The position numbers were made by a program, and so were the translations under genes. A DNA stretch of 64,000 nucleotides, from assembly GCA_902762305.1 (NCBI GenBank), contig CACWNW010000002.1, positions 248,001-312,000 of the forward strand, written 5' to 3'. The first letter of the stretch is position 1. Each line of letters opens with the position of its first letter. The DNA is from Fibrobacter succinogenes. Its GTDB lineage: Bacteria; Fibrobacterota; Fibrobacteria; Fibrobacterales; Fibrobacteraceae. A model generated the notes under the pieces. That model was given only the letters and a program-made list of their open reading frames with translations, was not told the origin of the DNA and made no database searches. Shown here piece by piece: positions 1,996-62,893 of the stretch.

Positions 1996-2023
1996 GACCT
2001 GCCAGAAATGGCAGGTCTTTTTT
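1996..2023 (+). terminator. Rho-independent terminator after the esterase gene
   Basis: An 8-bp perfect stem GACCTGCC / GGCAGGTC with a 6-nt loop is followed by six T. It lies 27 bases after the stop codon. Confidence 0.9.
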
Positions 2024-2255
2024 AGACCGCTCGTTCATCGTCTCGGGTTTCGAGACCTCCGGTTCTTCACTCGCTCTCGCGCCCGCCATGTCTTAACGAG
2101 CATGGCTATGCGCTCACAGTTAGACCGCTCGTTCATCGTCTCGGATTTCGAGACCTCCGGTTCTTCGCTCGCTCTCGCGCCCGCCCCTAGTTAATACTAG
2201 GGGCTTTGTCGCTCACGGTTCGACTGCTCGTTCATCGGACCGCTCGTCTTTCCCG
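2024..2255 (+). repeat. 98/99-bp modular tandem repeat, two full units and part of a third
   Basis: Unit starts are 2024, 2122 and about 2221. Each begins AGACCGCTCGTTCATCG and has a small palindrome GTCTCG / CGAGAC (2040-2056 in unit 1), then TCCGGTTCTTC and CTCGCTCTCGCGCCCG, then a palindrome, then GCTCAC. The last palindrome differs between units: GCCATG / CATGGC (2085-2106) in unit 1 and CCCCTAGT / ACTAGGGG (2184-2203) in unit 2. The same framework, in the other orientation and with a third stem, forms the array at 57791-58099. This repeat fills the 350-bp gap between the esterase terminator and the next gene. A period of 98-99 bp and stops in all frames argue against coding. Confidence 0.85.
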
Positions 2256-17074: not shown

Positions 17075-17150
17075 TGATGGTCTGCGATTGCCTCGCCTGA
17101 TTCTATCGCCCTATCGCTACGCTCCAGGGCTCCAGAAAGACAAGGCTCGC
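17075..17150 (-). repeat. Partial copy of the TCTGGAGC...GCGATAGAATC repeat
   Basis: On the minus strand the region contains TTGTCTTTCTGGAGC and further down GGAGCGTAGCGATAGGGCG and ATAGAATC. The same words occur in the same order in the repeat inside hrpB (61352-61433). This copy lies between the adhesin stop codon and its terminator. Confidence 0.55.
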
Positions 17151-26585: not shown

Positions 26586-26816
26586 TGGCTGACTAAAGCG
26601 CCATTTTCGGGGATTTAGTCCGCCAAAAATTAGTTTGTTCGCAAGCACATTTGTTTTTTCGGCAGACCAAAATGCGGTTTTTCGCAATTTAGTCAGCCAG
26701 AACCGACACCGGCCACCCCCAAAAAACGCCAACAAGCCCGACAACAGCCCCAAAATTCGTTACTTTGTTCAAAAAGTGGCTGACTAAAATCAGTTTTTTC
26801 GCGAATTGGTCAGCCA
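26586..26816. repeat. Three 40-nt hairpins with identical geometry
   Basis: Copies lie at 26586-26625, 26660-26699 and 26777-26816. Each has a 12-nt left arm related to TGGCTGACTAAA, a 16-nt loop and a 12-nt right arm related to TTTAGTCAGCCA. All three loops contain TTTTCG. The set occupies the gap between two convergent genes. The remainder of the gap (26817-26896) shows nothing recognisable. Confidence 0.85.
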
Positions 26817-26896
26817 AAATCGCAATTTCGACATGCAAAATGCCCGCAGGCAGAAGTCAAAACGCCAACAGGCCCGCGACACGCCCCATGTTGCTA

Positions 26897-34006: not shown

Positions 34007-34090
34007 GCGGTCGTGGTGGAATTGGTAGACACGCTAGCTTGAGGTGCTAGTGGGAGCGATCCCATGACAGTTCAAGTCTGTCCGACCGCA
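34007..34090 (+). tRNA. tRNA-Leu (GAG), copy 1
   Basis: 84 nt with acceptor GCGGTCG / CGACCGC and discriminator A. The anticodon loop CTTGAGG gives anticodon GAG. A long variable arm (class II) and the T-arm TTCAAGTC are present. The sequence is identical to the second copy at 36845-36928. Confidence 0.97.
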
Positions 34091-34100
34091 TTACGAAGTC

Positions 34101-36844: not shown

Positions 36845-36928
36845 GCGGTCGTGGTGGAATTGGTAGACACGCTAGCTTGAGGTGCTAGTGGGAGCGATCC
36901 CATGACAGTTCAAGTCTGTCCGACCGCA
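36845..36928 (+). tRNA. tRNA-Leu (GAG), copy 2
   Basis: 84 nt, identical to copy 1 at 34007-34090, with anticodon GAG and a class II variable arm. Confidence 0.97.
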
Positions 36929-36933
36929 GAAAG

Positions 36934-36966
36934 AAACCCAGTCGCAAGACTGGGTTTTCTTTTTTT
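36934..36966 (+). terminator. Terminator of tRNA-Leu copy 2
   Basis: The stem AAACCCAGTC / GACTGGGTTT with loop GCAA is followed by a T-rich run. Confidence 0.9.
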
Positions 36967-37098: not shown

Positions 37099-39820
<2,722 letters not shown>

Positions 39821-57679: not shown

Positions 57680-57790
57680 TTATACTCCAAAAGGCCACCT
57701 TTGGCCTAAGTCTTTATTTTTCAATATGTTAACGTAAATTTAATATTAATGTATCAAATAGTCAAGGCAACGCGGTCCCTGCAAGCCAGA

Positions 57791-58099
57791 GACGACGAAC
57801 GAGCGGTCTCTGTGAGCCGTAGGCGACTCGTATTGACGAGTCGTCGAAGGCGAAAGCGAGTGAGAATCCGGAAGTTTCAATGCCCGAGACGACGAACGAG
57901 CGGTCTCCGTGAGCCGTAGGCGACTCGTATTGACGAGTCGTCGAAGGCGAGAGCGAGTGAGAAACCGGAAGTTTCAACGCCAGGAACGTCGAACGAGCGG
58001 TCTCCGTGAGCCGTAGGCGACTCGTATTGACGAGTCGTCGAAGGCGAGAGCGAGTGAGAATCCGGAAGTTTCAATGCCCGAGACGACGAACGAGCGGTC
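57791..58099 (-). repeat. Three 97-bp tandem repeats plus a partial unit
   Basis: Units are 57791-57887, 57888-57984, 57985-58081 and a partial 58082-58099; the word CGAACGAG recurs at 57796, 57893, 57990 and 58087, exactly 97 bases apart. Each unit has the palindrome CGACTCGT-ATTG-ACGAGTCG (57824-57843 in unit 1). On the minus strand the units read AGACCGCTCGTTCGTCG, like the array at 2024-2255, but with a different stem. The array begins right after the stop codon of the minus-strand barrel gene. The remainder of the gap (57680-57790) shows only an AT-rich promoter-like region. 97 is not a multiple of three, so the open frames inside are not genes. Confidence 0.93.
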
Positions 58100-58100
58100 G

Positions 58101-59429
58101 CTATCTACTACGCCATCTAGACGAGATCACCTTGTCGAACAGCCCGAAGTAGAACACCGGCTCCCCCCTGTCGGGGCTATACCCCACCTCGAAGCGGATG
58201 CGGTCCAGCGCCGGAATCACGAGGTGGATACCGCCATAGACGGCACCTTCGTAGTTATCCCAGCCGGGGCGGCCCTTATCCCAGAGCAGGCTCCCGTCGA
58301 GACCGGCCACCAGCTGAACCCCGTAGAAGAAGTTGATACCCCAGACACTCGCGGCACGGCGCTCCAGCAGAACGAAGCGTTCCTCGAGCGTGAGCAGGGC
58401 CTCGTGGACCCCGAGAGAGCCCGAATCGGCCTCGTGCCCGCGAAACGTATTGGCACCGCCATGGTAGTAGTAGTCGTAAAATTTTACGTCGCCCGGACGG
58501 TAACGCACCAGCGCGGTCGCACCCGTTACAAAGCGCCCGAAAGTCTTGTAGGCGCGCGCATCCGTGAGGAGTTCCCAGTAGTTCTCGCCCATCCCGACAT
58601 TCGAGCACTCCTTGCCCTCCGCGCAATCACTATCATTATACACCAGAAAGTTCGAGCCCCCCCCCACATGCGTGAGCATATACTCGAAGTACACGCCATC
58701 GCGCGTATCGAGCTTGCTGTCGCGATAGTCCAAGGCGACACCCGCACCAATTTCGGGCAAAACAGCACCACCCCACGTAGAAATCATGCGCAAGGCCATC
58801 GTGCCGAGCAGCGAGAGATGCTCCTTCACTTCGTAGTCCAGGTCCAAATCCCACAGCAAACTCCTTTCCGGAAAGTTCCTAATTTCATCGTAGCTGTCCG
58901 TCATGAGGAATTCGAGATTCCACCCCAGCGGAAGCCCGAACAGGTAAGGGGAACTGGCATAGAAGGCGACCTCGTTCTTGTCGAAAAACGGGTCGACCGT
59001 CGTGCGGTACTGGACTTCGAGCCGGATATCTTCGCCGAGCACATTGATGTTCGCGAGCGCTGCCCCGAGCATCAGGCCGTCACGGTCGGTCTTCTTGCCC
59101 GCGGGAGCCGGAATCCAGCGGAAAATTTCCTTGAAATGGTAGGTAAGCTTCGTTCCCTCGCACGAAACCGAGATTTCGGTGAACAGGTCAAGGTCCTGCA
59201 GGCGGGCTTTTTCCATCTCGAACTTTTCCTGCGAAAACGGCTCCCCCGCACGGTTCAGGAGTTCGCGTTCCACCACACGGGGCTTCGTATGCTTGAGCCC
59301 CTCAAAAGAGACCGACGAAACCGAGGCACCTTCGGGACAGGCCGCGGGCGCAGCGGGTTCGGCAAAGGCTCCCCCCGCCAAGCAAATCGTCACCATAATC
59401 CAGGCATTTCTTTTCAAAAGGCGAAACAT
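58101..59429 (-). CDS. BamA/TamA-like outer-membrane protein with one POTRA domain
   Basis: 442 residues. A signal peptide (WIMVTICLAGGAFA) is followed by a single POTRA-like domain (residues 33-95: SVSSVSFEGLKHTKPRVVER and GEPFSQEKFEMEKARLQDLD, then LFTEISVSCEG). A 16-strand Omp85 barrel follows, with YHGGANTFRGHEADSGSLG, where FRGH corresponds to the conserved (V/I)RG(F/Y) tip of loop 6. BamA itself has five POTRA domains, so this is a shorter Omp85 member with an unknown client. The start at 59429 is set by the signal peptide; TATATTCG (plus-strand 59435-59442) ends five bases upstream. Confidence 0.8.
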   Translation of the reverse strand: MFRLLKRNAWIMVTICLAGGAFAEPAAPAACPEGASVSSVSFEGLKHTKPRVVERELLNRAGEPFSQEKFEMEKARLQDLDLFTEISVSCEGTKLTYHFKEIFRWIPAPAGKKTDRDGLMLGAALANINVLGEDIRLEVQYRTTVDPFFDKNEVAFYASSPYLFGLPLGWNLEFLMTDSYDEIRNFPERSLLWDLDLDYEVKEHLSLLGTMALRMISTWGGAVLPEIGAGVALDYRDSKLDTRDGVYFEYMLTHVGGGSNFLVYNDSDCAEGKECSNVGMGENYWELLTDARAYKTFGRFVTGATALVRYRPGDVKFYDYYYHGGANTFRGHEADSGSLGVHEALLTLEERFVLLERRAASVWGINFFYGVQLVAGLDGSLLWDKGRPGWDNYEGAVYGGIHLVIPALDRIRFEVGYSPDRGEPVFYFGLFDKVISSRWRSR

Positions 59430-59553
59430 AGAACCGAATATAGAAAATAAGACCTTATTCAAAAGAAAAACACGGCTTCGCAGGCCACGAACCGGCATCC
59501 GATTTTCTATATTTAGTCGCGTAAAAAATTAGCCCCGCAAAAAAGAGGTGAAC

Positions 59554-60115: not shown

Positions 60116-62893
60116 ATGACTTACGGTGAATTAGCCCTCGCGGAAGAAGAAGACAAGCTGGAGGCTGCGATTGCGCAGTCCAGCAATCTGCTTATCGAGG
60201 CGCCCACGGGGTCGGGCAAGTCGCTATTCATACCCTACTTTTTGAGCAAGCACTGCAAGGGGCGCGTCGTCGTATTGCAGCCCCGCCGTATTGCGGCACT
60301 TGCACTTGCCCAGTTCTCTGCAAAACTCCACAACGAGCCCTGCGGCAAGACCGTCGGTTACCAGTTCAGGCAGGACAGCTGCAAGAGCGCCGGCACGCGC
60401 ATCCTCTTCCAGACATACGGAAACTTTCTGCAGGAACTTTTGCACGGCAAATGCGATGTCGACTGGATTGTGTTCGATGAATACCACGAGCGCAAGGCCG
60501 ACATGGATTTGCTTTTCGCATTTTTTAAGGGTGCCGAATGGCCGCGTGTGAGCCGCAGCGACCAAGCGCAAGCTGGTCGTAGAGGCGAGAGTGAGGCGAT
60601 GCCGGAGGTTCTTCTTTACGATAGAGCCGAACGGCCTCGTATCGCGGTGATGTCGGCGGCGCTGAACCGTTCCGAACTCGAAACGGTTCTCGGCGTCAAG
60701 TGCCTTGAACTCGGCCACCCGCTGTACCCCGTCCAGATTATCAACCAGACTCCCGCCACGGGCAACTCGCTCGTTTCGGGCGTGGGCCTTGACGCCGAAG
60801 TGGTGCGGGCGCTAAAGACGCTCTACCGCAACAACATCTGGCAGACGACACTGGTATTCCTGCCGGGCAAGGCCGAAATCGCCCGCTGCCACAGCGCCGC
60901 CTCCGAAGCGCTGGGAGCAAACTGCGCCGAATTCCTGGAACTCTACGGCGGGCAGGACCGCGAAACGCAGGACCGCATCTTTGAAGTTACCGAACGCCCG
61001 CGGGTCATATTCACCACGAACATCGCGGAAACCTCGATTACCGTCCCGAACGTTACGGGCGTGGTCGACAGCGGCATCGAGCGCGTGAGCCTCTACGACG
61101 ACAGCGAGAAGGTGAACGTGTTGCGCACACTCCCCATCTCGATGCAGAACGCCATCCAGCGCAGCGGCCGTAGCGGCCGTACGCAGAACGGCTGTGCCAT
61201 CCGCCTCTGGAGCGAAGAATCCGAAAAGCGCATGCCGCAAGGAATCGTCCCCGAAGTATTGCAGATAGAGCCGTCGGAACTGCTGCTGCAGAAGGCGGCA
61301 CTGGAACAGGAGATGCACGCGAGGACGACCGCCGGAATGATTCACACGGCATGTCATTCTGGAGCGGAACAGCGTGGAGCGATAGAATCCATGGACCCTA
61401 TCAGTCGTCCTGCGGACTCCTTCCAGGGCGACATTAAACTGCCGACAGCGATTCCGGAAGCACGCGAGCAGGCCGCCACCAAATTACTTGAGGGATTCGG
61501 AATGCTCAATGGCGGCGCCATTACGGAACTTGGCATCAGGGCCATACGCACTCCGGTTTCGAGCATCCCGCTCGCGCTGCTCCTCGCCACGGCAAACGGC
61601 CCGCAAGACCTCCCCGACCTGCTCCTCGCAGCGCTCGCGTGGATTCACTCCGGCACGGAATTTTTGCAAAAGGCGAAGGTCGCCTACGACATCCTGACGC
61701 TTGCCGCCGACACGCTTTCGAAAAACATCAATGTCCCGCGCGAAGTGAGCTTCACCCTCCGGCAGTTGCGGGATTACCGCGAGAAGGATTTGCAAGTGGA
61801 CACACTTGCCGCTTCGCAGCTGCGGTGTGACGAATCCATGGACCCTATCAGTCGTCCTACGGACTCCTTCCAGGGTGACAATCCAACCTCCCCTGCCCTT
61901 AAAAATTTCGTTTGCAGGCAACTCCTTAAGGCGTTCCCGGACAGGCTCGCCACCCCGAGCGGAAGTGCATACAAACTCGCAAACCAGAACGTCATCCGCC
62001 TGCAGGTCGCCGAACCGCCCTATGCGATTCTCGCGCTCTCGATGCTGCGCACCGGCACCACGAAATCGGAACTCAAGGTAAACCTCTACGCCGCAATCGC
62101 ACAAGAAATGCTTGCAGGCGAAAACGCCGCTACCCGCTACGAACTGCTGTGGCGCAGCGGGCAGGAACGGTTTATCGGCGTAGAAATCCGCGAAAGCAAA
62201 AACGCAGACGGCACCGCAACCGAACTTTCGCGCAAGGAAATCCTCACGCAGGAGGCTCCCCCGAAGGTTCTCGAAGAACTGAAGAAGTTGACCGTCGATG
62301 CATGGCGCGAAAAGATAGAGAAGGAAAACTGGAGCGGGCGCTACCTTACCGAACAGATGCAGACGCTCCTTACCAAGATGCGCCTTGCCGCAATGCTCTA
62401 CCCTGAATACGGGCTCCCCGAATTCAACGACGAGGATATGGAAATCATCTTCGACGATTTTGCAGACGGCAAGTTCCTGCTCCGCGACATCAACGAGGAC
62501 CGTTACCGGAATATCGTGGAGGACTTTTTCGGCAAGTCCATGCTTGCCTGGCTGAACAAGACCTTCCCCGACCACTATGTGCTCCCCAACGGCAAGCGCG
62601 CCCGCTACAGCTACCAGGCCGTAGCAAATAGCGACGACGACAAGTCGGTACAGAGCGCCGAAGGCGTACTTGTCGAAATATCTGCCCGCATCGAAGATTT
62701 TATGCAGTTGCGCGGCGAACACAAAATCGCAGACGGCAAGCTAAAAGTCCGCTACGACATCCTCGCCCCGAACTTCCGCACCATCCAGAAGACGTGGGAC
62801 CTGACCGGATTTTGGCAGAACACCTACGCCGAAGTGCGCAAGGAACTGCGCGGGCGCTACCCCAAGCATCCGTGGCCCGAAAAGGTGGAATAG
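60116..62893 (+). CDS. hrpB: ATP-dependent helicase HrpB with three repeat-derived insertions
   Basis: 925 residues, a DEAH helicase: Walker A APTGSGKS (residues 29-36), DEYH (121-124), MSAAL (179-183), TNIAETSITVPNV near 302-314 and QRSGRSGRTQNG near 346. The HrpB C-terminal domain ends TWDLTGFWQNTYAEVRKELR and GRYPKHPWPE, the family signature. HrpB usually has 810-850 residues. The excess is explained by segments at residues 145-167, about 412-440 and about 566-589, which are translations of intergenic repeat families. They lie between helicase motifs II and III, after the second RecA domain, and in the C-terminal half. The function in RNA metabolism is uncertain. The frame is intact. Confidence 0.9.
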   Translation: MTYGELALAEEEDKLEAAIAQSSNLLIEAPTGSGKSLFIPYFLSKHCKGRVVVLQPRRIAALALAQFSAKLHNEPCGKTVGYQFRQDSCKSAGTRILFQTYGNFLQELLHGKCDVDWIVFDEYHERKADMDLLFAFFKGAEWPRVSRSDQAQAGRRGESEAMPEVLLYDRAERPRIAVMSAALNRSELETVLGVKCLELGHPLYPVQIINQTPATGNSLVSGVGLDAEVVRALKTLYRNNIWQTTLVFLPGKAEIARCHSAASEALGANCAEFLELYGGQDRETQDRIFEVTERPRVIFTTNIAETSITVPNVTGVVDSGIERVSLYDDSEKVNVLRTLPISMQNAIQRSGRSGRTQNGCAIRLWSEESEKRMPQGIVPEVLQIEPSELLLQKAALEQEMHARTTAGMIHTACHSGAEQRGAIESMDPISRPADSFQGDIKLPTAIPEAREQAATKLLEGFGMLNGGAITELGIRAIRTPVSSIPLALLLATANGPQDLPDLLLAALAWIHSGTEFLQKAKVAYDILTLAADTLSKNINVPREVSFTLRQLRDYREKDLQVDTLAASQLRCDESMDPISRPTDSFQGDNPTSPALKNFVCRQLLKAFPDRLATPSGSAYKLANQNVIRLQVAEPPYAILALSMLRTGTTKSELKVNLYAAIAQEMLAGENAATRYELLWRSGQERFIGVEIRESKNADGTATELSRKEILTQEAPPKVLEELKKLTVDAWREKIEKENWSGRYLTEQMQTLLTKMRLAAMLYPEYGLPEFNDEDMEIIFDDFADGKFLLRDINEDRYRNIVEDFFGKSMLAWLNKTFPDHYVLPNGKRARYSYQAVANSDDDKSVQSAEGVLVEISARIEDFMQLRGEHKIADGKLKVRYDILAPNFRTIQKTWDLTGFWQNTYAEVRKELRGRYPKHPWPEKVE
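60548..60613 (+). repeat. In-frame copy of the 97-bp modular repeat inside hrpB
   Basis: GTGAGCCGCAGCGACC and, after the stem, GAGGCGAGAGTGAGGCG and CCGGAGGTTCTTC follow the order of the intergenic 97-bp repeat (GTGAGCCGTAGGCGAC, GAAGGCGAGAGCGAG, CCGGAAGTTTC). The palindrome here is CGACCA / TGGTCG, a fourth stem variant. It encodes VSRSDQAQAGRRGESEAMPE. Confidence 0.75.
61352..61433 (+). repeat. In-frame copy of an 82-bp palindromic repeat inside hrpB
   Basis: Starts TGTCATTCTGGAG and ends CTTCCAGGGCGACA, which are inverted to each other. It contains GGAGCGATAGAATCC and CCATGGACCCTATCAG. It encodes HSGAEQRGAIESMDPISRPA followed by DSFQGD. A related partial copy is intergenic at 17075-17150. 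Confidence 0.85.
61832..61880 (+). repeat. Second, 5'-truncated copy of the palindromic repeat in hrpB
   Basis: 49 bp matching 61385-61433 with two differences, in the same reading frame (447 bases apart). It encodes ESMDPISRPTDSFQGD. Confidence 0.9.

Follow-up and report, generated by a model that had tools for sequence, protein, structure and literature searches.

In-frame insertion of palindromic repeats into protein-coding genes is known for two groups of bacterial elements (PMC2229807, PMC3733652). Rickettsia palindromic elements (RPE) are hairpin repeats of 105-146 bp that lie in frame in many unrelated protein genes (PMC2229807), and they have been judged neutral or slightly detrimental in effect (PMC2229807, PMC10969869). 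The CGTC REPs, which include RPE-4 and RPE-6 of R. conorii and dRS3 of Neisseria, have no known dedicated transposase, and some of them are located inside repair and RNA genes (PMC3733652). Intragenic REPs occur in several phyla, again with many in repair and RNA genes, and recB of two Xanthomonas species is the only case reported there in which roughly one position holds different REPs (PMC3733652). Further afield, arrays of the heptanucleotide TAACTGA have been described in Beggiatoaceae (PMC4679880), and palindromes within coding sequence are also found in nematomorph mitochondria (PMC6649704).

The repeats described here lie in and around hrpB of the rumen bacterium Fibrobacter. Compared by architecture alone, they resemble RPE in being hairpin-forming intergenic repeats that also sit in frame in conserved genes, with several families per genome. 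They differ from RPE in phylum, in unit size (mostly 24-97 bp, with 7-bp arrays as well) and in that unrelated families take over the same sites from one member of the genus to another. Like CGTC REPs, the short Fibrobacter palindromes have a TGTC/CGTC tag, a stem of ~8 bp that starts with A-T and a loop of 4-6 nt, and they are found near 3′ ends, where the adjoining genes are unidirectional or convergent; the account of CGTC REPs does not name Fibrobacter (PMC3733652). With the RAYT-associated GTAG REPs they share small size, palindromic structure, high copy number and an occasional location in genes, whereas the GTAG tag is missing from the Fibrobacter family examined and a Y1 transposase (Y1_Tnp, PF01797) is found in just 12 of 41 Fibrobacter genomes. 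The 7-bp tandem arrays, of GAGACGA type, are scattered through the genome as in Beggiatoaceae but also occur inside genes. No report of such repeats in Fibrobacter was found in searchable papers, and as far as these show, what is new is the phylum, the combination of repeat classes that are unrelated to each other, and the fixed landing sites that have been overwritten many times across the genus.

HrpB varies in length at three sites

In the 64-kb stretch of DNA analysed (hereafter the window), hrpB is an intact open reading frame at 60116..62893 on the forward strand. It encodes the DEAH-box RNA helicase HrpB (925 aa), as identified by the Pfam domains DEAD, Helicase_C and HrpB_C in a profile search and by the best PDB match, E. 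coli-type HrpB (6eud). HrpB structures in the PDB contain 809-812 aa and the 66 distinct hrpB sequences of the genus encode 818-968 aa, such that an earlier note on this DNA, which put the excess at 80-100 residues, gave a fair figure relative to the shortest relatives. A protein search matched hrpB in 59 of 61 Fibrobacterota genomes, nearly all Fibrobacter members among them. The alignment of the 66 sequences included loci from a public collection titled Fibrobacter succinogenes and Fibrobacter sp.; the genomes are mostly metagenome assemblies, several of them 99-100% complete in 10-20 pieces, and genes were called with a simple codon-usage script rather than a standard annotator.

Insertions and deletions in this alignment cluster at residues 140-171, 400-437 and 558-593 (window HrpB numbering; sites 1, 2 and 3), where the standard deviation of length is 16.8, 14.6 and 11.9 aa, respectively, compared with 4.1 aa for the next largest value elsewhere. 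Inserts range from 0 to 77 aa across the genus. These sites are the three extra segments that had been singled out before, and they do fall between helicase motifs. The segments are also cleanly absent from relatives, for example in G035 (YLLKKGPRIAVMSA) and at site 1 in G010 and G003, and in several relatives the sites are short or empty. At site 1, other Fibrobacterota families have an ordinary linker that hardly varies, and the idea that the repeats are an old trait of hrpB throughout the phylum was rejected on this ground; at sites 2 and 3 these families have linkers that are variable and of low complexity. When the synteny of the 46 genes in the window was traced in five relatives, gene order proved mostly lost outside the hrpB neighbourhood, and controls were therefore taken from 28 gene families near hrpB (at least 6 orthologues each). 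Among these neighbours hrpB has the largest indel variance and ppa (pyrophosphatase) has none.

AlphaFold yields a generally weak model of HrpB (mean pLDDT 64.9). Its longest stretches of low confidence coincide with the three sites (pLDDT <50 at residues 142-171, 410-438 and 564-589), a prediction consistent with disorder. An Rfam scan of the window returned tRNAs and SRP RNA only. Two tRNA genes, at 34007-34097 and 36845-36935, are 97% identical over 91 bp and lie 2.8 kb apart. Two further repeats were noted in the window: three close 43-bp copies of a different, apparently intergenic repeat (TGGCTGACTAAA..TTTAGTCCGCCAAAA type) at 26586-26819, and an in-gene 18-bp tandem repeat at 37166-37470 that encodes a repetitive stretch resembling an 11-residue sequence.

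Elements occupying the sites in the window

Site 1 holds element A, ~96 bp at 60545..60640 on the forward strand (residues ~144-171), between the DEYHER and SAA motifs; it was delimited by matches within its own genome and by its clean absence in G010 and G003. Its layout is GTGAGCC..CGACC-loop-GGTCG..GAGCCGAACGGCCTCGT and its translation is RVSRSDQAQAGRRGESEAMPEVLLYDRAERPR. Sixteen own-genome matches were found including itself, the best others at E=2e-13 and 9e-11. A 17-bp direct repeat (GAGCCGAACGGCCTCGT) bounds the element and is present as a single copy in G010 and G003. This repeat could be a target duplication or, because G022 carries tandem units, a unit boundary.

The site 1 segment had been equated with a 97-bp repeat at 57791-58099, and here the earlier note was not borne out, as no direct match was found within the window. 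That repeat, module M, occurs in tandem arrays bracketed by a 20-bp repeat; the one at 57785..58102 (forward strand) is intergenic and has three units and a terminal repeat of 20 bp. A second, more diverged intergenic array lies at 2013..2237 (reverse strand; C2:250024-250237); both were recognized by own-genome matches, of which M has 60. A and M are sister subfamilies: several own-genome matches of element A overlap members of the 97-bp family (C24:32618, C11:129451 and C14:1573).

Element B occupies site 2, after the second RecA domain, at 61352..61433 on the forward strand (residues ~400-437), as defined by own-genome matches and the alignment. It is laid out as TGTCATTCTGGAGC..GATAGAATCCATGGACCCTATC..CTTCCAGGGCGACA and translates as CHSGAEQRGAIESMDPISRPADSFQGD. 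Its strongest own-genome matches lie inside hemA (E=3e-9), in a region called intergenic (E=9e-7, 75% over the full length) and at a third locus (E=3e-6). The insert at site 3 (61784..61880, forward strand, residues ~558-593) contains a second copy of the 3′ core of B, recognized by the alignment and by core identity; the 49-bp core common to sites 2 and 3 (61385-61433 and 61832-61880) had been reported previously and proved 96% identical. A proposed intergenic copy at 17075-17150 (reverse strand) fared less well: a stretch like the 5′ half of B is visible there by eye, but its match to B is not significant, none being obtained at E<=1.

A genome-wide count of copies inside genes, which the earlier note had proposed, gave 10 of 22 matches for B including itself (as called, with hrpA and hemA among them), 2 of 16 for A and 0 of 30 inspected loci for M. 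Stop codons were ruled out as the cause of the absence of M from the genes at these loci, since M, like A and B, has 3 of 6 open frames.

Inserts match repeats elsewhere and remain translatable

To set the inserts against chance, 161 of them, pooled from all species, were compared with a 1.43-Mb corpus that was not picked for repeats and in which hrpB was masked; 161 dinucleotide-based shuffles and 161 equal-length segments from other parts of hrpB served as controls. Matches at E<1e-3 were obtained for 77/161 inserts, 1/161 shuffles and 1/161 control segments, and against all loci for 89 inserts, one shuffle and one control. A named repeat family could be assigned to 83 of the 159 inserts of at least 36 nt and to 0 control segments. 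About half of the inserts had no recognizable match, which would be expected from decay or from unsampled families.

All hrpB inserts are in frame across the Fibrobacter species. The frame could be followed most closely in the REP palindromes, whose ATGAC end contains TGA in one of its three frames: the 33 forward REPs in hrpB comprise 29 in the ATG-AC frame, 4 in AAT-GAC and 0 in the TGA frame. Inserts are therefore selected to stay translatable, unlike introns or bypassed elements. Translationally bypassed elements and inteins were ruled out, given the 0/33 REPs in the stop frame and insert lengths far below intein size. One REP family of G029 has seven copies in genes, that of hrpB included, and all seven share one orientation. 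Together with clean absence, own-genome copies and the excess of matches over chance, these results uphold the central proposal that intergenic repeats have inserted in frame in hrpB.

Repeat families of Fibrobacter

Across 41 Fibrobacter genomes, REP palindromes of the form GATCCCCG-n3-9-CGGGGATGAC and relatives are present at 0-90 copies per genome, and the reversed pattern gave zero matches. Examples are TGTC-ATCCCCGC-GAAG-GCGGGGAT and TGTC-ATCCCCGG-CTTGA-CCGGGGAT. The units are 24-30 bp long with the TGTC/CGTC tag at one end, A-T first pairs, a stem of 8-9 bp and a loop of 4-5 nt, or 6 nt in some variants; judged on these features and on genomic position, they agree with most of the published CGTC REP definition (PMC3733652). 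In G029, 16 lie between unidirectional genes, 12 between convergent and 0 between divergent genes, many of them <60 bp from a 3′ end.

A second class consists of nested hairpins with conserved outer arms, represented by B (GTCATTCTGGAG..GATAGAATCC; 0-26 copies per genome) and SEAKQ (GTCATTGCGAGC..GAAGCAATC; 0-35 copies), with a reversed-pattern control of zero. In these hairpins (L390-L419 among others) the arms are fixed and the inner stem is variable yet self-complementary, as if template switching within a strand had copied it or selection had maintained its pairing.

The third class comprises GAGACGA heptamer arrays, for which exact matches to three units number 0-49 per genome (control 0). 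Lag-7 identity is 0.308 in the inserts versus 0.248 in the rest of hrpB. Within genes the arrays read DERRETR or SSLVSRL, often with palindromes attached. A POTRA/Omp85-like neighbour of hrpB (58104-59498; orthologues L191, L197, L207 and L222) contains runs like SSLVSRLSSN, in which the heptamer array that hrpB reads as DERRETR is read from the reverse strand. The ~96-97 bp modules, A and M, make up a fourth class.

The same sites change occupants in hrpB and in other genes

In other species the hrpB sites that hold A and B in the window are filled by CGTC-tagged REPs, nested hairpins, heptamer arrays or ~96-bp modules. Unrelated repeats occupy the same site between flanks that are 95-96% identical, at site 1 in L187 and L223 and at site 3 in L047 and L199. 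On a tree of the hrpB core with 65 tips, the minimum number of content changes is 28 at site 1, 25 at site 2 and 22 at site 3, or at least 75 in total; these counts depend on family labels, so that gain or decay of a recognizable motif could register as a change, and they are low because unassigned inserts share one label. This re-occupation of the three sites by different families was overlooked in the earlier note, as was the like behaviour of HrpA, RsmG and topoisomerase III.

In HrpA, the loop between motif I and motif Ia is swapped from species to species while its flanks are almost constant. RsmG, the 16S rRNA methyltransferase, has exactly one variable site among 30 orthologues (L316-L345), spanning 0-73 residues just before the methyltransferase fold and filled by the same repeat families as hrpB; outside it there is a one-residue gap only. 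Topoisomerase III (TopB) has at least 2 variable insertion sites, and empty sites were seen in orthologues of hrpB, HrpA, RsmG and TopB alike. In-frame copies are not confined to these proteins, and hosts named by NCBIfam are RsmG, RsmB (rsmB), RsgA (rsgA), TilS (tilS), DNA topoisomerase III, a UvrA-like protein, a ModF-like ABC protein, glutamyl-tRNA reductase (hemA) and a DegT-type aminotransferase.

The repeats are found both inside and between genes: one REP family of G029 has 32 intergenic copies and 7 of 39 in genes, hrpB included, and among loci sampled elsewhere 4/30 REP, 4/30 B, 8/30 SEAKQ and 11/30 heptamer loci lie in genes. In the hrpB-centred corpus, hrpB contains 38 of 69 REP palindromes and all other genes together contain 9 (reversed control 1), numbers which compare density and not genome-wide share because the corpus was chosen around hrpB; several of the 9 are probably there by chance.

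A model for the origin of the inserts

The positions of the repeats, their open frame, their identity with repeats elsewhere and their turnover can be read from the sequences themselves. The likely explanation, which we hold with good though not full confidence, is that intergenic selfish repeats are filtered for frame and tolerated in loops, where fixed sites are repeatedly overwritten by unrelated families. The repeats would spread as non-autonomous DNA, mainly to intergenic space just 3′ of genes, and copies in genes would persist only if they keep the frame open and add their peptide to a surface linker that tolerates it. HrpB would have three such linkers, HrpA at least one, RsmG one and topoisomerase III at least 2. 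In each lineage these loops would be overwritten by whichever family is active, hence the unrelated repeats at one site in sister sequences with hrpB flanks ~95% identical. An occupied loop may favour further insertion through homology between repeats. The insert peptides would be translated passengers that leave the helicase core unaffected, with a near-neutral effect on HrpB.

A RAYT/Y1 transposase was considered as the mover and rejected as unlikely because the most repeat-rich genomes lack any Y1 transposase (none was found in G033, G029, G016 or G022). Among IS200-type Y1 transposases (L174-L185), one is present in the window's genome (C18:886-1242), and their presence does not track repeat abundance.

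There is a small chance that loops of RNA- and DNA-handling proteins are true hot spots, where some activity repeatedly swaps cassettes at precisely these positions and yields inherited loop diversity, as opposed to mere sparing by selection. Somewhat less likely again is adaptive diversification, in which the loops are selected to change, for RNA substrates or escape from phage proteins, and the repeats supply ready in-frame sequence. The very fast turnover at fixed sites between flanks ~95% identical and the RNA- or DNA-handling function of several hosts fit such selection, but the same families also occur in unrelated proteins and in intergenic space, and about half of the inserts are recognizable repeats and not tuned sequence.

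It is improbable that the cassettes are simply hrpB alleles of long standing that homologous recombination has passed between Fibrobacter species, with few new insertions. Near-identical site 3 alleles do occur in differently related hrpB genes (L199, L197 and L026), and one cassette is found at site 3 in G000 and at site 2 in G029. Some site alleles are thus common to several species and homologous exchange contributes; however, inserts match intergenic DNA and other genes, so exchange of hrpB alleles alone cannot explain them.

A regulatory role at the RNA level, with hairpins in hrpB and hrpA mRNA kept for autoregulation as sensors or brakes that are unwound by their own helicases, appears more improbable by a shade. 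Both RHA helicases bear elements, and the inner stems self-pair beyond chance, since 19/29 of the variable inner segments of B form at least 3 outer pairs versus 3% of shuffles. Heptamer arrays and element-free sites at the same positions argue against this role, as do the elements in RsmG, TopB and a sugar aminotransferase. Finally, that fast-evolving disordered linkers resemble repeats merely through composition or slippage is very improbable: sites 2 and 3 are variable and of low complexity in other Fibrobacterota families, but the excess of matches over both controls and the exact palindromes with zero reversed-pattern matches refute it for about half of the inserts, although it could hold for the unassigned rest.

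The movement of CGTC-type repeats, for which no transposase is known, is an open question (PMC3733652), and on this Fibrobacter offers a natural experiment: many relatives have been sequenced, filled and empty sites occur between flanks ~95% identical, and a single gene has undergone at least 75 changes. The loop sequences of Fibrobacter proteins are poor phylogenetic markers and are easily misread as domains, and in this genus non-coding repeats would steadily be becoming protein sequence in conserved housekeeping enzymes.
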